In this document: one piece after another, positions 50,763 to 59,456 of the stretch
Numbering within the stretch: the stretch's first letter is position 1
Layout of the letters: the number at the start of each line of letters is the position of its first letter
Assembly: GCF_002237555.1 (NCBI RefSeq)
Contig: NZ_CP022540.1
Coordinates: 3,353,001 to 3,417,000 of the forward strand
Length of the DNA stretch: 64,000 bases
Direction of reading: 5' to 3'
From: Antarctobacter heliothermus
GTDB lineage: Bacteria; Pseudomonadota; Alphaproteobacteria; Rhodobacterales; Rhodobacteraceae
Notes under the pieces: generated by a model
Seen by the model: the letters and a program-made list of their open reading frames with translations, nothing else
Database searches by the model: none
Told to the model about the DNA's origin: nothing
Program-made: the position numbers and the translations under genes

Positions 50763-51077
50763 TCAGACCTCTTTCATGATCTGCTCTTTGGCAAGAATCA
50801 GCAGACCGGCGCGCTTGGAGCGGATCTCATCTGCCGTGGCCTTGTCGCCCAGATCGCCCACAACCTTGCGCACCACATCCTCGTGGCCGGCTTCTTCGAA
50901 GTCCGCCTTGACGACTTCGATGGCATAGCTGTTGGCGTCGTCGCCGGTCTTGCCCAGAAGTTCGGCCGCCCAAAGGCCCAGCAGCTTGTTGGCGCGGGCC
51001 TCGGCGCGGAATTTCATTTCCTCGTCATGGGCATATTTGTTCTCGAACGCGTTTTCGCGGTCATCGAAGGTGGTCAT
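50763..51077 (-). CDS. F1-ATPase inhibitor subunit zeta (DUF1476)
   Basis: 104 residues. In Paracoccus denitrificans the zeta subunit blocks ATP hydrolysis by F1FO through its N-terminal helix. The full family pattern is here: [20 protein letters not shown] at the inhibitory N-terminus, [15 protein letters not shown] and [17 protein letters not shown] C-terminal helix. It is divergent from purC, the usual order in Rhodobacterales. Confidence 0.92.
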
Positions 51078-51298: not shown

Positions 51299-52060
51299 AT
51301 GGCACGGCGCAAGAAAATCTACGAAGGCAAGGCAAAGATCCTTTACGAAGGCCCCGAGCCGGGCACAATCGTGCAGTACTTCAAGGATGACGCGACCGCC
51401 TTCAACGCCGAAAAGAAAGACGTGATCGAGGGCAAGGGCGTTCTGAACAACCGCCTGAGCGAATATTTCATGGTCGGTCTGAACGGCATTGGCGTGCCGA
51501 CGCATTTCATCAAACGGCTCAACATGCGCGAACAACTGGTCCGCGCCTGTGAAATCATCCCGCTGGAAATCATCGTGCGCAACTACGCCGCCGGGTCGCT
51601 GTCCAAGCGTCTGGGCATCGAAGAGGGCACCGCCCTGCCGCGTCCCATCGTCGAATACTGCTACAAGGACGACAAGCTGGGCGATCCTCTGGTGACAGAG
51701 GAACACATCGGTGCCTTTGGCTGGGCCAGCCAGCAGGACATGGATGACATCGTGGCGCTGGCGCTGCGGGTGAACGATTACATGTCGGGTCTGATGTATG
51801 GCGTCGGCATCCGCCTTGTCGATTTCAAGATCGAAGTGGGCCGCGTTTATGATGGCGACTATCAGCGCCTGATCGTTGCGGATGAGATTTCGCCCGACAG
51901 TTGCCGCCTTTGGGACATCGAGACCGGGCAGAAGCTGGACAAGGACGTGTTCCGCCATGATCTGGGCAGCCTTGCGGATGCCTATACAGAGGTGGCGCGC
52001 CGTCTGGGTGTCATGCCCAAACAGGCCACGCATATGGCAAAGCCCAAGCTGATCAACTGA
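51299..52060 (+). CDS. purC: phosphoribosylaminoimidazole-succinocarboxamide synthase
   Basis: 253 residues. It joins aspartate to CAIR in purine synthesis. Motifs: [18 protein letters not shown] at the ATP site, [32 protein letters not shown] and [15 protein letters not shown]. The ATG at 51299 gives the family start after GGGAAAGGG. In related genomes purS and purQ normally follow directly; here they begin 6.4 kb downstream. Confidence 0.95.
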
Positions 52061-52220: not shown

Positions 52221-54824
52221 ATGATGCGCCGATCCCTTGTGACCTCGTTTGCCTTGGCGCTCCTTGCCCTACCGCTACACGCGCAGCCGGTCGAATTTGA
52301 CCCCTCCGACTTTGGCAAAATCGTCGTCGCCAAACGGCAATCCGCAGGCACCGGCTTTGTGCTGGAACAGGCCTTTGGTGACTACCAAAACGAACCTGTC
52401 ATCTCTTATGGCGAGAAAAGCATTGCGCGCCGCCTTGGCCGTCCGGTCGGGCGGCTGGATGTGCTCTATGGCAACGGCAAAACCGGCTATTGCACCGCCT
52501 TTATCGTCGACGCCGAACACCTTGTGACCAACAACCACTGCATCCCCGGAGTCGGTGACCCCGGCGTGCAGGCGGCGCAATTTGTGGCGGGCTATGTCGA
52601 TGCGGCCCACCCCGACACCGCTGAAAAGTTTCAGGTTCAACTGCAAGCGTTGGAAACCAGCGGACCGCTGGATTATTCCGTTCTGCGCGTATTTGGCGAC
52701 CCGTCGGCGCGCTATGGCAAGGTCGAACTGGCCGATGCTGACCCCGAAAGCTCTGAATTCCTCTGGATCATCGGCCATCCGCAGGGACAGGCGCAGCACA
52801 TCAGCCGTGAGGGCTGTGCCGCCGCCGATCCGCCGGTCTCGACAGAGGGCAAGGTGGTGCACAGCTGCGATACGCTGGGCGGCAACTCCGGCTCTCCGGT
52901 GTTTCGCATTTCCGACCGGCAGGTTGTGGCGCTGCACCATGCGGGCGACAGCCGTACCGGATTCAATTTTGCCATCCCGATGAAACGCATTCTGGCCGAA
53001 AGCAAGATCCTCAAGGCCGCGGCACCCGCCGGTCCGATTGCGCCGCCGCCGGTCGCCCAAGGGGCCTGTGAGGTGCTGTGGGGCGCGGCAGAGCAGCATG
53101 GCTGCATCGGCTATCAGACCTTTCTCGATCAATGCGGCGATCACGTTCTTGCGCCGCTGGCGCGCGGGTTGGCGGATCGCTCTTGCAAGGCCGATGTCGT
53201 CACCACGCCGCCTGTCGGTCTGCCGGACCCGGCCCAGGACCGCCTGAAGGCAGAGATCGCCAAGGGGCTGGAGGCCGCTGAACAGCAGCGCGCCGAAATC
53301 TCAAAGGAAGGGGCAGCCGCAGATCGCGCGCTGCGCAGCCTGCAGGGCACGCTGACCCGCGCGCGGGCGCGGGCAGGGGACGCGGAAACCTCTGCCAAGC
53401 CGGGCAGCGCTGAGGTGGCGGGCCTCTGGCGCGGAGTTGCGGACCAGATCGAGGCATCGTTGACAGAGGCCAAGGGCCGGGCAGACGCGATGCCGCGCCT
53501 GCTGGAAGACATGGACCGGTTGATCGAAACGCTACGCGGCGCGACAACGCAGGCAGAGGTGGACTCGGCCAGCAAACGCGCCGCAACCCTGTCAGAGTCC
53601 AGCCGTGAACAGCTCGCCTTTGTCGTGGCGCGCAAGAGTGTCGTCGACAAACTGTTTACCGAAGGAGAGGCAACTGTGATCGTGCTGTTGCAGGACGCGG
53701 TCAGGGGGCAGGGCGACACTGCAGCGACATTGGCCCTGCGCCGCGCGATTCAGCAGGCACAGGCCACCGCGGAACTGCATCTGACCGACAGCCGCCGTTT
53801 CAGCCGCGAGGCTCTGGAACATTATGCCGTGCATGAAACCCTGATCCGCGACGCTTATGCACAGGCCACCGCCGCCACGGCAGAGGGCGGCCCGGCCAGC
53901 GCCGACATCGCCGCCCTGTGGGAGGCGCTGGCGCGTGGACTGTCGGGTGAGTCGTTGAGGATGAAAAGTCGTGTTGACGGGATGCAACGCTTTGCCGATA
54001 CCATCGCAGCCGCCCACGCGGCGTTGCCGGACGCCAAGACTGACTCCGACGTGACCACGGCGCTTTTACGGATCGAGGGCACCGCGGACCTGACAGAGAA
54101 TTGGCTGACGCAGGTGTCGACCCGCCTTGCCAGCGCCCGCGAGCAATTCGCCGAAACCGAGGTAAAGGCAGCAGCGCTGCGCGCCACGGCGGAATCCACC
54201 ACCGCGCGCCCGGCGATCGTGACCCAATGTCTGGAGGTCGCGATGCCGATGTTCGCGGTCGAAGGCATCGCCGGGGTCTCGCGCGACGATTTCAATGTTG
54301 GCGCGGCGGAACTGGCCTGTAGCGCCGCGCGCAAGGTCAGCGACGACCCGGCGGTGTATTACGGGATGGCCCGCGCGCTGATCGACCGCAAACGCTACAA
54401 CGAGGCGCTGCGCATCCTGCAGAATCCGCGCATGGAGGGGTTCGTTCCGGCGCGCTATTCGCTAGGCGTGGTCTACAACAGCGGGCTGGGTGTCCGTCAG
54501 GACTATGGCAAGGCGCTCGCACTGTACCAAGAGACGACCAATGCAGGCTATCCGCAGGGCAAGTTCTCGTTGGGGGTCTACTATAGCCTCGGGCGCGCGG
54601 TGCGCGTGGATCACGCGCGGGCCGGTGCGTTGCTGGTCGAGTCCATCGCCGACGGCTATGCACATCCGATCACACAGCTGCACAAGCTGCCGGGCGGGAC
54701 CACAAGGGCTATCCAGCAGGAATTGGTGGCGCGCGGCTATCTGTCGGACCGCGACGTCGACGGTGCTTTTGGCCCGACGACCCGGCGCGCGCTGGAACGG
54801 TTGGTCGCCGCCGCGGGACGCTGA
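52221..54824 (+). CDS. secreted trypsin-fold protease with coiled-coil, Sel1-like and peptidoglycan-binding regions
   Basis: 867 residues. Signal peptide 1-21. The S1-type catalytic domain (about 25-265) has His106 in TNNHCIPG, Asp151 in LDYSVLRVFG and Ser223 in LGGNSGSPVF, so it should be active. A Pro-rich linker leads to a four-Cys module (282-323; C..LW......GC..Y...LDQCGDH). Residues 350-690 are long Ala/Glu-rich helices, then TPR/Sel1-like repeats (about 715-800, PARYSLGVVYNSGLGVRQDY) and a peptidoglycan-binding domain (825-867, LVARGYLSDRDVDGAFGPTT). It probably acts at the cell wall. The first ~340 residues are paralogous to the next gene. It interrupts the pur gene order. Confidence 0.85.
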   Translation: MMRRSLVTSFALALLALPLHAQPVEFDPSDFGKIVVAKRQSAGTGFVLEQAFGDYQNEPVISYGEKSIARRLGRPVGRLDVLYGNGKTGYCTAFIVDAEHLVTNNHCIPGVGDPGVQAAQFVAGYVDAAHPDTAEKFQVQLQALETSGPLDYSVLRVFGDPSARYGKVELADADPESSEFLWIIGHPQGQAQHISREGCAAADPPVSTEGKVVHSCDTLGGNSGSPVFRISDRQVVALHHAGDSRTGFNFAIPMKRILAESKILKAAAPAGPIAPPPVAQGACEVLWGAAEQHGCIGYQTFLDQCGDHVLAPLARGLADRSCKADVVTTPPVGLPDPAQDRLKAEIAKGLEAAEQQRAEISKEGAAADRALRSLQGTLTRARARAGDAETSAKPGSAEVAGLWRGVADQIEASLTEAKGRADAMPRLLEDMDRLIETLRGATTQAEVDSASKRAATLSESSREQLAFVVARKSVVDKLFTEGEATVIVLLQDAVRGQGDTAATLALRRAIQQAQATAELHLTDSRRFSREALEHYAVHETLIRDAYAQATAATAEGGPASADIAALWEALARGLSGESLRMKSRVDGMQRFADTIAAAHAALPDAKTDSDVTTALLRIEGTADLTENWLTQVSTRLASAREQFAETEVKAAALRATAESTTARPAIVTQCLEVAMPMFAVEGIAGVSRDDFNVGAAELACSAARKVSDDPAVYYGMARALIDRKRYNEALRILQNPRMEGFVPARYSLGVVYNSGLGVRQDYGKALALYQETTNAGYPQGKFSLGVYYSLGRAVRVDHARAGALLVESIADGYAHPITQLHKLPGGTTRAIQQELVARGYLSDRDVDGAFGPTTRRALERLVAAAGR

Positions 54825-55043
54825 TCACCTAGCTGATCAACTAACAGTGACCGGCCAAGACCCACCCTGTGCCCTGCGCCATCGGTGCGGCAACTGTTTC
54901 CATTGTGGAAAAAAGCACAAATGTGTCCGGAAACCCGCGCTATCCGTGCCATTTCTGTCCGAAAGGCAAGGAATTCTTTACTTGGCGGCGGGGGCCCGCT
55001 CACGGTACGCTCCAACAGTATTCTTGCCAACGGGGACATTGTC
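54825..55043 (+). other. spacer between the two protease genes
   Basis: 219 bases with no gene. The base composition is less GC-rich than the flanking genes (for example TTCCATTGTGGAAAAAAGCA at 54898-54917). I see no clear promoter or terminator, so whether the second protease gene has its own promoter is open. Confidence 0.4.
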
Positions 55044-58000
55044 ATGCGTTCACTCTTCTCAGCACTTGCACTTTGCGCAGGGGCAGTCGTCGGCGGCCAA
55101 GCCGCTGCACAAACTGCTCCGGCCGAGTTCGATCCAACGGATTTCGGAAAAATCATCATTCAGCCGCGCCAGTCCGCTGGCGGCGATGGTCTGGTCTTTG
55201 AACAGGCCTTTGGAGATTACCAAAACGAGCCGATCATCAAATACGGCGAAACCAGCCCGATCATCAAACTGGGCCGGCCCATCGGGCGTCTGGACATGCT
55301 GTTCACCAACGGCAAGACCGCGTTCTGCACGGCCTTCATCGTCGATGATCAACACATCCTGACCAATCACCACTGCATCCCCGGCATGGACGGTGATCCC
55401 ACCGGCCGTGACAGCGGCGTGCAGGCGGCCCAATTTGTGGCCGGTTTCATCAAGCCCGGCAGCTCGGAAGGGGTTGATCGCTATACCGTCAGCCCGCAGA
55501 TCATCGAAACCAATCGCGAGTTGGACTACACCGTCCTGCGCGTTTTCGGTAATCCGTCGACCAAATACGGCATGCTGGAACTGGCCGAGGAAGATCCCGA
55601 AGACAGCGAATTCCTCTGGATCATCGGCCACCCGCAGGGTCAGGCCATGCACATCAGCCGCGAAGGCTGTGCCGCCGCCAACCCCGCCATCTCGGCCGAA
55701 GGCAAGTTGATGCACAGCTGTGACACGCTGGGCGGCAACTCCGGCTCGCCGGTCATTCGCCTGTCCGACAAGCGCGTCGTCGGCCTGCACCACGCGGGCG
55801 ACAGCCGCTCCGGCTTTAACATGGCGATCCCGATGACCCGCATCCTGCCGCAAAGCCGGGTGCTCAAGGCCTCGACCGGTCCGGTGGTCAACGGCGGCAC
55901 CACGCCCAAGCCTGACCCGAAACCGCAACCGCAGGTCAACGCCTGTTCGGCCATGTGGGCCGAGGCCAAGATTCTGGGCTGCGCCGGGTATGAGGCCTAT
56001 GCCGCCGATTGCGGCGATCACACCTTTGCCTCGATGGCGCAACGCATCATCGAACGCGAATGCAGTGTCCCGGTCAAGCCGGACACCACCGTCGTCGTCA
56101 AACCCAAGGAACACGGCGGGCCGGTCCTGACGGTCAAATCCTCGGGCGGCGACTATTCCGAACTGGCGGACGCCGTCGCGGCAGCCGATCCGGGCACCCG
56201 GATCGAGGTTTACCCCGGCACCTACACCCGTGGCCTCGACGTGTCGAAGCGACTGGAAATCGTCGGCGTCGGCAACAAGCGTGACATCGTGCTGAAGGTG
56301 GCAGAGGACAACGCCGTGCGCTGGACCGCCGAAAGCGGGCGCATCGCCAACATGTCGATCCATCAGGACGGCGGCAAATTCTTCAACGTCCACATCGCCG
56401 CTGGATCCGTGATCATCGAAGACAGCGACCTGACCTCCAAAGGACTGGCTGTGCTGGCCATCCGCGACAACACCGGCGCCACCATCCGCCGCAACACGAT
56501 CCGTGACGGCGCGCAGGGCGGTATCTTCATGTTCGAGGCCGGCAAGGCGCTGATCGAAGGCAACACCATCTTCGGCAACTCCCTTGCCGCGCTGGAAGTC
56601 AAAGAAGGGTCAGACCCTGTCGTGACCGGCAACACCCTGCGTGATGGCGGTGGCTCGGGGATCTTCATCAACGAAGGCGGCAAGGGCCGGTATGAGGGCA
56701 ATATCGTCTTCAACAACGCCCTGTCCGGCATCGAGGTGAAGGCCGCTGACAACCCGCTGATCTCTGGCAACACCATCCGTGACGGCCAGCAGGGCGGTAT
56801 CATGACCTCTGACGCGGCGATGTCGCGCATCACCAAGAACGAGATCTACGGCAACGCCTATGCCTCGATCGAGATCAAGACCGGTGCCGATCCGCAGGTC
56901 TACGACAACATCCTGCGCGACGGACAGCAGTCGGGCATCTACATCCACGAAGGCGGCAAAGGTGTGATCGAGAACAACCAGATCATCCGCAACGCCTTTT
57001 ACGGGATTTCGGTCAAGGGGGACTCCAACCCTGTCGTGCGCTCGAACACCATCGCCGGCAACATCTATGAGGCGATCCGCGTCCGCGAAGGCGGCGGCGG
57101 CACCTATGAGCGCAACGACCTGTCGGGCAACACCGCGGGCACCTTCCGCATCGAGGCCGACGCCGGCAACGTGATCCGCGTCGGCAACATCGAAGTGCCG
57201 GGGCAGGTCACAACCACGCCCAAACCGGATCTGAGCGTCAACGTCCTGACGGTCAAGGCAACTGGTGGCGGTGACTACCGTGAACTGGCCGACGCCGTGG
57301 CCGCCGCTGATCCCGACACCCGGATCGAGGTCTATCCCGGCACCTACACCCGTGGCCTCGACGTGTCGAAGCCGCTGGAAATCGTCGGGGTCGGTCCGGT
57401 GTCTGACATCGTTCTCAAAGTGGCCGAAGACAACGCGGTGCGCTGGACAGCGGACTCGGGTCGGATTGCCCGGATGACCATCCTTCAGGACGGTGGCAAG
57501 TACTTCAACGTCCACATCGCCGCTGGATCGGTGATCATCGAGGACAGCATCCTCAGCTCCAAGGGGCTGGCTGTGTTGGCCATCCGCGACAACAACGATG
57601 CCACCATCCGCCGCAACACCATCCACGACGGCGCGCAGGGCGGTATCTTCATGTTCGAGGGCGGCCGGGCCACCATCGAAGGCAACGAGATCTACGGCAA
57701 CAGCCTCGCAGCTCTTGAAGTCAAAGAAGGTGCAGACCCCTATGTCACCAGCAACACGATCCGTGATGGCGGCGGCTCTGGTATCTTCATCAACGAGGGT
57801 GGCAAAGGCCATTTCGAAGGCAATACCATCTACAACAACGCTCTGTCGGGTATCGAGGTGAAGGCGGCCGACAATCCGCTGATCACCGGCAACACGATCC
57901 GCGATGGCCTGCAGGGCGGGATCATGACATCCGATGGTGCCATCTCGCGCATCACCGCCAACGAGATCTTTGGCAACACCTACGCCGGGATCGAGATCAA

Positions 58001-58319
58001 GACCAACGCCAACCCGTCGGTCTATGACAACATCGTGCGCGACGGACAGCAGTCCGGCATGTACGTTCACGACGGCGGCAAGGGCGTGATCGAAAACAAC
58101 GAGATCTTCCGCAACGCCTTCTACGGGCTTTCGGTCAAGGGCGCGTCCACGCCAATTGTTCGCTCCAACACGATCTCGAAGAACGTGTACGAGGCGATCC
58201 GCGTCCGCGAAGGCGGCGGCGGCACCTATGAGAACAACGATCTCACGGGCAACACCGCTGGCACCTTCCGGATTGAGGCCGACGCCGGCAACGTGATCCG
58301 CCGCGGCAACAAGGAATAA
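55044..58319 (+). CDS. secreted trypsin-fold protease with two tandem parallel beta-helix domains
   Basis: 1091 residues. Signal peptide 1-22. Protease domain (about 25-275) with His110 (TNHHCIPG), Asp161 (LDYTVLRVFG) and Ser233 (LGGNSGSPVI). A Pro/Lys linker and the same four-Cys module (301-342) follow. Residues 361-718 and 734-1091 are two right-handed parallel beta-helix domains, each opening with VLTVK...GDY.ELADAVAAADP and built of ~22-residue coils such as GNTIRDGQQGGIM and EAIRVREGGGGTYE. The domains are close copies, offset by 373 residues, pointing to recent duplication. Such helices often bind or cut glycans. ATG 55044 has GGGGAC before it. Confidence 0.87.
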   Translation: MRSLFSALALCAGAVVGGQAAAQTAPAEFDPTDFGKIIIQPRQSAGGDGLVFEQAFGDYQNEPIIKYGETSPIIKLGRPIGRLDMLFTNGKTAFCTAFIVDDQHILTNHHCIPGMDGDPTGRDSGVQAAQFVAGFIKPGSSEGVDRYTVSPQIIETNRELDYTVLRVFGNPSTKYGMLELAEEDPEDSEFLWIIGHPQGQAMHISREGCAAANPAISAEGKLMHSCDTLGGNSGSPVIRLSDKRVVGLHHAGDSRSGFNMAIPMTRILPQSRVLKASTGPVVNGGTTPKPDPKPQPQVNACSAMWAEAKILGCAGYEAYAADCGDHTFASMAQRIIERECSVPVKPDTTVVVKPKEHGGPVLTVKSSGGDYSELADAVAAADPGTRIEVYPGTYTRGLDVSKRLEIVGVGNKRDIVLKVAEDNAVRWTAESGRIANMSIHQDGGKFFNVHIAAGSVIIEDSDLTSKGLAVLAIRDNTGATIRRNTIRDGAQGGIFMFEAGKALIEGNTIFGNSLAALEVKEGSDPVVTGNTLRDGGGSGIFINEGGKGRYEGNIVFNNALSGIEVKAADNPLISGNTIRDGQQGGIMTSDAAMSRITKNEIYGNAYASIEIKTGADPQVYDNILRDGQQSGIYIHEGGKGVIENNQIIRNAFYGISVKGDSNPVVRSNTIAGNIYEAIRVREGGGGTYERNDLSGNTAGTFRIEADAGNVIRVGNIEVPGQVTTTPKPDLSVNVLTVKATGGGDYRELADAVAAADPDTRIEVYPGTYTRGLDVSKPLEIVGVGPVSDIVLKVAEDNAVRWTADSGRIARMTILQDGGKYFNVHIAAGSVIIEDSILSSKGLAVLAIRDNNDATIRRNTIHDGAQGGIFMFEGGRATIEGNEIYGNSLAALEVKEGADPYVTSNTIRDGGGSGIFINEGGKGHFEGNTIYNNALSGIEVKAADNPLITGNTIRDGLQGGIMTSDGAISRITANEIFGNTYAGIEIKTNANPSVYDNIVRDGQQSGMYVHDGGKGVIENNEIFRNAFYGLSVKGASTPIVRSNTISKNVYEAIRVREGGGGTYENNDLTGNTAGTFRIEADAGNVIRRGNKE
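56124..58316 (+). repeat. in-gene tandem duplication of ~1.1 kb
   Basis: The segment beginning GTCCTGACGGTCAA at 56124 repeats at 57243 with the same phase (offset 1119 bases) and continues to 58316. Long stretches are nearly identical in DNA, for example around CGGCACCTACACCCGTGGCC in both copies. It encodes the two beta-helix domains. Confidence 0.9.
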
Positions 58320-58341
58320 GCAGGCCACAAGGCAGGCTGTG

Positions 58342-58370
58342 ACGCCGTCCCTTCGGGGGCGGCGTTTTTC
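58342..58370 (+). terminator. terminator after the beta-helix protease gene
   Basis: ACGCCGTCCC-TTCG-GGGGCGGCGT followed by TTTTC. It ends the inserted module before purS. Confidence 0.9.
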
Positions 58371-58432: not shown

Positions 58433-58663
58433 ATGAAAGTGCGCGTGCATGTGATGCTCAAGGACGGGGTTCTCGACCCCCAAGGCGAGGCCGTGCGCCA
58501 TGCACTTGGGGCGCTGGGGTTCGACGGCGTCGGGTCCGTCCGTCAGGGCAAGGTCATCGAGATGGATCTGGCCGACGGAACATCCGAGGACAAGATTGGT
58601 GAGATGTGCGAAAAGCTGCTCGCCAATACAGTGATCGAGAGCTACCGCATCGAAACGCTCTGA
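58433..58663 (+). CDS. purS: phosphoribosylformylglycinamidine synthase subunit PurS
   Basis: 76 residues. Small bridging subunit that channels ammonia between PurQ and PurL. Family pattern: VHVMLKDGVLDPQGEAVRHA, GFDGVGSVRQGKVIEMDL and a final ENTVIESYRIE-like strand. The ATG at 58433 follows GGGGACGATC. 127 bases from purQ, with no gene between. Confidence 0.94.
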   Translation: MKVRVHVMLKDGVLDPQGEAVRHALGALGFDGVGSVRQGKVIEMDLADGTSEDKIGEMCEKLLANTVIESYRIETL

Positions 58664-58790: not shown

Positions 58791-59456
58791 ATGAAAGCAG
58801 CCGTCATCGTGTTTCCCGGGTCCAATTGCGACCGCGATCTGGCCCGCGCCTTTGAACAGGCCGGTTTGCAGGTCGATATGGTCTGGCACAAGGACACGTC
58901 TCTGCCGGACGGAATCGACATCGTCGGCATCCCCGGCGGGTTTTCCTTTGGCGACTATCTGCGCTGTGGGGCGATTGCGGCCAATGCGCCCATCGTCGGG
59001 GCGGTCAAGGCGCATGCGGATCGCGGCGGCTATGTGCTGGGCATCTGTAACGGTTTTCAGGTGCTGACCGAAACCGGCCTGCTGCCCGGCGCGCTGCTGC
59101 GCAACGCCGGTCTGAAATACATCTGCCGCACCATCGGCCTGCGCGCCGAGGCGGGCTCGGTCTATACCGAGCGCTACGGCACTGGCACCGAAATCGCCCT
59201 GCCAATCGCGCACCATGACGGCAACTACTTCGCCGATCAGTCCACGCTGGACCTGCTCGAGGCCGAAGACCGCGTCGCCTTTCGCTATACCGACAATCCC
59301 AACGGGTCGGCTCGGGACATCGCGGGGGTGCTGTCGGCCAACCGCCGGGTGCTGGGCATGATGCCGCACCCCGAACGCGCGAGCGAAACCGCGCATGGCA
59401 ATGAGGATGGTGCGCGCCTTTTCGCCCATCTGACCGAGGCCCTGACCACCGCCTGA
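58791..59456 (+). CDS. purQ: phosphoribosylformylglycinamidine synthase subunit PurQ
   Basis: 221 residues. Glutaminase that supplies ammonia to PurL. The N-terminus [19 protein letters not shown], oxyanion [17 protein letters not shown], nucleophile Cys in [11 protein letters not shown] and the His/Glu pair in [11 protein letters not shown] are all intact. GGAGTGAACCC precedes the ATG. Confidence 0.95.

Follow-up and report, generated by a model that had tools for sequence, protein, structure and literature searches.

The 64,000-nucleotide stretch analysed here (contig NZ_CP022540.1, Antarctobacter heliothermus; hereafter the window) raises the question of why purC and purS, described in an original prediction as usual neighbours, are separated by 6.4 kb (from the purC end at 52060 to the purS start at 58433), and what the two protease genes between them, g1 and g2, do. 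Comparative analysis revealed that both genes are present, as that prediction had stated, each with a Trypsin_2 domain. Its description of a modular, envelope-acting system fits our results, but the two genes are not a separate pair: they occupy one site of a genome-wide family in which at least eight types of C-terminal tail follow a conserved protease head. With somewhat better than even confidence, we read this family as a heme-linked exported protease system with one cleavage chemistry and many envelope addresses, in which serine-protease and caspase heads replace each other.

The shared protease head

The features of g1 and g2, in window coordinates, are the following.

52221–54824, plus strand: g1, predicted exported protease with a cysteine linker, a long helical region, Sel1/TPR repeats and a truncated PG_binding_1 domain (open reading frame, Pfam, alignment, model)
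52491–52934, plus strand: g1 Trypsin_2 domain (Pfam)
52536–52538 (His), 52671–52673 (Asp) and 52887–52889 (Ser), plus strand: g1 catalytic codons (alignment)
53067–53186, plus strand: g1 cysteine-rich linker, common to g2 and the SH3-tailed paralogues (alignment)
53229–54203, plus strand: g1 long helical region, residues 337–661 (high-confidence model)
54447–54548, plus strand: g1 Sel1 repeat (Pfam 5.9e-5, under the curated cut-off; Foldseek matches mainly Sel1 proteins)
54702–54800, plus strand: g1 C-terminal truncated PG_binding_1 domain (Pfam 1.5e-4, just under the curated cut-off)
55044–58319, plus strand: g2, predicted exported protease with a cysteine linker and two right-handed beta-helices (open reading frame, Pfam, alignment, model)
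55326–55787, plus strand: g2 Trypsin_2 domain (Pfam)
55371–55373 (His), 55524–55526 (Asp) and 55740–55742 (Ser), plus strand: g2 catalytic codons (alignment)
55944–56063, plus strand: g2 cysteine-rich linker (alignment)
56124–57200, plus strand: g2 beta-helix module 1 (Pfam, model, Foldseek)
57240–58316, plus strand: g2 beta-helix module 2 (model; the doubling occurs only in Antarctobacter/Mameliella loci)

The reading frame of g1 runs from an ATG at 52221 to a stop at 54824. That of g2 ends at 58319 and may open at a GTG at 54885; the ATG at 55044 was chosen because of the signal-like sequence there, and the starts of both g1 and g2 resemble signal peptides by eye.

Pfam assigned Trypsin_2 to g1 at 4e-16 and to g2 at 3.4e-18. 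The two proteins share a head of about 270 residues with 61–65% identity, followed by the short cysteine linker; the common N-terminal part had been foreseen, at a length (about 340 residues) that did not hold. The catalytic triads, correctly predicted to be complete, were invariant for g1 (H106, D151 and S223; alignment A3, 23 rows) and g2 (H110, D161 and S233; alignment A2, 19 rows). His-Asp-Ser was kept in 96 of 96 heads above 300 bits, one of them a truncated copy, and in 101 of the 111 members overall (the heads in 74 named loci plus the loci of G000, the 5.3-Mb genome of the window). The cysteine linker stood behind the head in 55 of 136 rows, and a search for it in all fetched loci gave three matches outside recognised heads, all in loci cut inside family genes. 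A truncated head was also seen in Mameliella sediminis (L158:6134-6898), and in genome G005 a head without its Ser half is followed by a region that looks PDZ-like by eye (L136:3335-4639).

Among solved structures, the Bacillus glutamyl endopeptidase 1p3c matched the head at 2.3e-9 with H, D and GNSG aligned, the alignable residues being those around the active site. The family resembles the V8/glutamyl endopeptidases (S1B; Bacillus 1p3c, staphylococcal V8) in the triad, the GNSG serine motif and the following His loop, whereas it differs in an additional region at the N-terminus, a cysteine linker in many members, long exchangeable C-terminal tails and several copies per genome. We infer that g1 and g2 are paralogues, members of an exported S1 protease family whose triads are intact and whose sequences are related to these enzymes, and that the nearly frozen head performs one kind of cleavage, probably after acidic residues.

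The HtrA/Deg proteases are likewise of S1 type, and some family members carry PDZ tails and others cyclophilin tails, as would be expected if these were HtrA-like housekeeping proteases for ordinary envelope quality control that happened to duplicate. We regard this explanation as very unlikely. Unlike HtrA/Deg, g1 and g2 have no PDZ domain, the mark of that group, by Pfam; the two best Trypsin_2 matches of the window's genome are genes other than g1 and g2, presumably of DegP type; and the head is narrowly distributed, occurring in 16 of 295 family genomes (at 1e-15) and 2 of 385 class genomes (at 1e-30), the window's own included among the latter. The window's genome also contains two tandem short trypsin-like genes without long tails (L014:3908-5568).

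Tails and their replacement

Seven heads of at least 200 bits were found in the window's genome, g1, g2 and five elsewhere, and the fetched loci of each of five further genomes of the same genus (Antarctobacter and Mameliella; genus placement by tool) contained 7–11, a small number of which are dead or truncated. Pfam revealed at least eight tail types on heads above 300 bits: beta-helix, Sel1 with PG_binding_1, SH3_3, PG_binding_1 with unknown ends, WD40, PDZ, cyclophilin and YARHG. Weaker heads carried IalB, SPOR, TPR or a solute-binding domain, an OmpA tail was found in the database relative P0038, and several tails had no Pfam match. The identified tails are binding, scaffold or folding modules, and none is a toxin domain. 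L017 and L018 hold weaker trypsin-like relatives with long C-terminal regions, that of L017 carrying the periplasmic solute-binding domain.

The C-termini of g1 and g2 differ as predicted, with a strong Pfam Beta_helix match in g2 (8.4e-110). For g1, AlphaFold gave a confident helical rod followed by repeats, and for g2 a pair of beta-helices, likewise confident; the Foldseek relatives of the tails were mainly Sel1 proteins for g1 and alginate lyases/epimerases for g2. Such a tail would serve for binding or as a scaffold and would position the protease in the envelope or on its target: g1, with its helical rod and Sel1/PG-binding part, probably at peptidoglycan, and g2, with its beta-helices, probably at polysaccharide.

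The likeness of the beta-helix fold to alginate lyases/epimerases would also suit a set of secreted proteases for digestion, with tails that attach to different particulate substrates or to algal polysaccharides and without any regulatory system, and the 16 Trypsin_2 matches in the window's genome and the presumably marine habitat of the hosts point the same way. However, modules of peptidoglycan or periplasmic type (PG_binding, SH3, PDZ, cyclophilin) make up many of the tails, the SH3-tailed member is constantly paired with a heme/DUF4384 protein (see below), and the heads are under very strong constraint; scavenging is therefore a rather unlikely account of the family.

This constraint was evident in the ratio of nonsynonymous to synonymous substitution rates (dN/dS), which for heads was 0.02–0.07 in 16 of 19 orthologue pairs and 0.09, 0.17 and 0.21 in the other three. 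Tail dN/dS was 0.08–0.31 in 18 pairs and 0.64 in the nineteenth, whose tails are non-homologous; it exceeded that of the head in all 19 pairs and was above 1 in none. The window's genome is close to A. heliothermus DSM 11445 (purC 99.6% and heads 97–99% identical), and between G000 and A. heliothermus the head of g1 was 99% identical and its tail 85%.

At two loci outside the purC–purS array of head genes (loci A and B), orthologous heads between conserved flanks bear unrelated tails. At locus A (L011), represented by six genomes, the alignment covers the flanks and the head to its end, breaks off across the tail DNA and resumes 4–25 bases past the stop. Flanks and head of G000 showed 87–89% identity to A. 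heliothermus and 79–80% to Mameliella CS4. Four genomes have a PG_binding tail with a small C-terminal region there, A. heliothermus has seven WD40 repeats, and CS4 has a different PG_binding tail related to those of Tropicibacter, with only the first 90 or so residues common to CS4 and Tropicibacter. At locus B, the upstream flanks align, the downstream flank resumes 36–430 bases past the stops, and the tails comprise one PDZ in A. heliothermus, two PDZ in CS4 and a cyclophilin in Maliponia; CS4 has an extra WD40-tailed head gene at this locus.

In a tree of 120 heads, well-supported branches forced at least six changes of the Sel1 label and at least four of WD40; because some of the WD40 rows form long branches, the safer cases are locus A and Anianabacter, in which WD40 is sister to SH3. 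At the protein level, 13 of 161 same-place pairs (arrays and tandem loci excluded) lacked tail similarity; three were tail-less rows, and the remaining 10 came from two loci. A larger set, 111 of 279 same-place pairs in which little of the tail DNA aligned, was rejected as evidence of tail swaps because array paralogues and fast SH3-tail divergence explain most of it. Recombination within the head at locus A has only modest support from sequence comparison: the 5' half of the G000 head was nearest to A. heliothermus (84.0%) and the 3' half to M. alba (86.7%, with A. heliothermus at 82.4%), yet G000 was nearest to the A. heliothermus head in both halves.

New addresses may arise by gene duplication and tail replacement behind a kept head. 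Polymorphic toxins diversify their C-terminal domains through recombination behind a common N-terminus (PMC3482391), and loci A and B share with them the constant N-terminus and replaceable C-terminus; here, in contrast, it is the enzyme that stays constant, and what varies is a module for binding, scaffolding or folding. No cognate immunity gene lies between purC and purS in the window; in three Mameliella genomes, dead tail-less heads adjoin active ones.

Catalytically dead heads accompany the active ones. In three Mameliella genomes, tail-less heads without His and Asp (H to L, D to G, Ser kept) come first in the purC–purS array, and further dead tail-less heads lie behind the Sel1 member (H to L/N, D to N/H, S to Q/E). 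Their dN/dS of 0.27–0.46 indicates that the dead tail-less heads are still constrained. All three triad residues are lost in the WD40+PG_binding family (L016 and relatives) of G000, G001, G002, G004 and G005, and weak dead tail-less relatives occur in G000 and G001 as well (L138, L106).

Constrained dead tail-less heads beside active ones, tails replaced at fixed loci and the caspase linkage of the distant partner described below would all fit a conflict or self/non-self system, in which diversified tails would recognise intruders, competitors or phage, the head would kill or trigger a response, and dead tail-less heads would be decoys or regulators. We nevertheless judge such a system unlikely. 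PADLOC gave no whole-protein match to a known defence system for the three active members tested, whose hits cover only the protease end of RT-Protease models (the best, RT-Protease_XI, from profile position 348 on), and the one dead head tested gave no hit; no mobile-element gene was seen by eye between purC and purS in the window, and tail dN/dS exceeded 1 in no pair.

A heme/DUF4384 partner and caspase neighbours

The SH3-tailed paralogue of the window's genome (L012) is followed after 43 base pairs (bp) by the gene for a protein, P0121, that has a signal-like start, two CxxCH motifs and a C-terminal DUF4384 domain (Pfam 8.3e-8) and matched a cytochrome family at 5e-6; NCBIfam contained no family for this heme/DUF4384 partner. 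Neither the partner nor the caspase parallel that it opens had been foreseen in the original prediction. In each of the 21 named SH3 loci searched, the gene immediately downstream encodes a partner homologue; the same search covered 10 other loci and found none in that place. Across the 295 family genomes, close orthologues (E below 1e-240) were found in 11. These comprise each of the 10 genomes with a head below 1e-70 and, in addition, G213, in which a weaker head adjoins the partner. A head lay within 5 kb of the partner in 11 of 11, upstream and co-directional in 10 and convergent in G252.

Distant, longer partner homologues with 30–32% identity were found in six genomes without a head at 1e-15, and in all six a PF00656 caspase gene follows downstream in the same orientation, with the nearest no more than 3 kb away. 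In the 11 close-partner genomes, many of whose assemblies are fragmented, the 100 kb around the partner on the same contig contained no caspase match. The clusters L247–L252 encode a cytochrome/DUF4384 protein of 1116–1242 residues with caspase genes downstream, and L252 also a ferric-reductase-like protein. Among the caspases scanned there, two were Sel1-tailed (one with PG_binding), two carried LprI and one an F5/8-type domain, and neighbouring proteins bear YARHG or OmpA. The Sel1+PG_binding caspase protein showed 33% identity over 382 residues to a tail of the protease family; given how common Sel1 repeats are, little can be concluded from this similarity by itself. These exported caspase clusters resemble the protease family in the homologous partner and in their Sel1/PG_binding tail, YARHG and OmpA proteins, whereas their head is a caspase and their partner is extended at the N-terminus by a cytochrome c region (Pfam in L247).

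Another neighbour was seen at L010, where a minus-strand gene (L010:15-1523) downstream of a family member overlaps the protease gene by 4 bases and encodes an SH3-domain protein that we take to be ClpP/SppA-like. This neighbour type lies beside three other loci and occurs in 4 of 295 genomes, and a look-alike with a YARHG domain is encoded in caspase cluster L251.

Links between these domains have been reported elsewhere. PMC6426788 describes alphaproteobacterial proteins that combine a trypsin-like domain with an intact triad, a caspase-like domain and DUF4384; they differ from the present family in that the domains are fused in one protein; the passages on them mention no exchangeable tails, and the text does not contain the word cytochrome. 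Two further papers report that trypsin and caspase domains are mutually exclusive in other, NTPase-based systems (PMC7159879) and that DUF4384 occurs on cyanobacterial caspase homologues (PMC7475262). A literature search, most subscription papers being outside its scope, returned among the matches listed no description of the protease family or of a heme/DUF4384-protease pairing.

These linkages suggest that the family works in heme-linked exported proteolysis: a c-type-heme/DUF4384 protein is encoded next to its SH3-tailed member, and remote relatives of this partner have caspases as neighbours instead. The heme may have a role in this, and g1 and g2 may share the partner in trans.

The purC–purS array and the reach of the family

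The neighbouring features of the array in the window are the following.

50763–51077, minus strand: small gene 5' of purC, with homologues beside purC in array loci (open reading frame); presumably the ATPase zeta subunit/DUF1476, the former name being that of the original prediction
51299–52060, plus strand: purC, left border of the insert (comparison of purC loci)
58341–58366, plus strand: intrinsic-terminator-like hairpin of 11 pairs with a T run
58433–58663, plus strand: purS, right border of the insert (open reading frame, locus comparison)
58791–59456, plus strand: purQ (open reading frame, locus comparison)

The hairpin agrees with the terminator ascribed to the insert, but such sites are not enriched as a class in the region (8 found against 7.0 expected from shuffles), and a promoter scan gave no result above chance.

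We found 60 purC genes in 61 family genomes and searched the 30 best-scoring loci for purS, which was directly behind purC, within about 380 bp, in 26 of them, in line with the adjacency stated in the original prediction. The other four are the four closest purC. Three of these, in G000, G025 and G030, have 2, 1 and 4 head genes, respectively, between purC and purS; in the fourth, G007, the 7.4 kb retrieved downstream of purC, which is internal to its contig, contained no head, and a beta-helix protease adjoins purS at the edge of another contig.

Among 20 named loci (L155–L174), 18 showed the order purC, one to four co-oriented head genes, purS; of the two exceptions, L164 (the G007 record) begins inside a head gene and L173 lacks purC and purS. 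The gene next to purS was beta-helix-tailed in 19 of 19 purS-bearing named loci, the beta-helix being doubled (6 matches vs 3) in the window and five Antarctobacter/Mameliella loci, and the g1 type was present in seven loci, the window's included. The record JAFKDC (L164, L186, L223) is titled Enemella evansiae, an actinobacterial name, and carries genes of a Roseobacter-type clade, so its title looks wrong.

The insert is fixed in the carrier clade and rare across the family, since 18 of 20 named loci carry the array but the head occurs in 16 of 295 family and 2 of 385 class genomes. The genes had been proposed to stand outside the core order of relatives, which is true of the family at large but not of the clade, where the beta-helix gene has a fixed place.

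Several observations weigh against the reading of one chemistry with many addresses. The partner adjoins the SH3 paralogue, not g1 or g2, and the close partner is absent from 5 of the 16 head-bearing genomes, those with weaker heads. Tails at a given locus are mostly conserved, with non-homologous tails at two loci only, and the Sel1 and PG_binding_1 assignments of g1, part of the original prediction, are weak. The best solved sequence match of the head is FAM111A (1.4e-10), which is not a glutamyl endopeptidase. Structure prediction, confident for the tails, left the head portion of both AlphaFold models unusable and the triad geometry unmodelled (predicted local distance difference test scores for the most part under 40 for g2 and under 60 for g1), probably because the alignments held close relatives. 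In G007, purC and the array are on separate contigs, and the carrier genomes are interrelated, so that co-occurrence among them is not independent.

Beyond that reading, we tentatively raise a broader possibility, which we hold to be less than probable: that Rhodobacterales-type bacteria possess an exported, c-type-heme-linked proteolytic signalling or self-destruct network with an interchangeable head (a caspase in some genera, a V8-like serine protease in others), a shared pool of tails that addresses each head, and dead tail-less heads as regulators. Inactive serine protease homologues regulate arthropod cascades and offer an analogy for the dead tail-less heads. On this broader view, the protein with a cytochrome region that some alphaproteobacteria encode together with caspases would be the bacterial parallel to the link between cytochrome c and caspases.

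To our knowledge, what exported bacterial caspases do has no settled answer. The exchange of caspase and serine protease beside one kind of partner would provide an entry to their role that is testable in culturable marine bacteria. If the proposed system is real, bacteria can re-aim one exported protease by a change of tail alone, at defined chromosomal loci and with the head strongly constrained.

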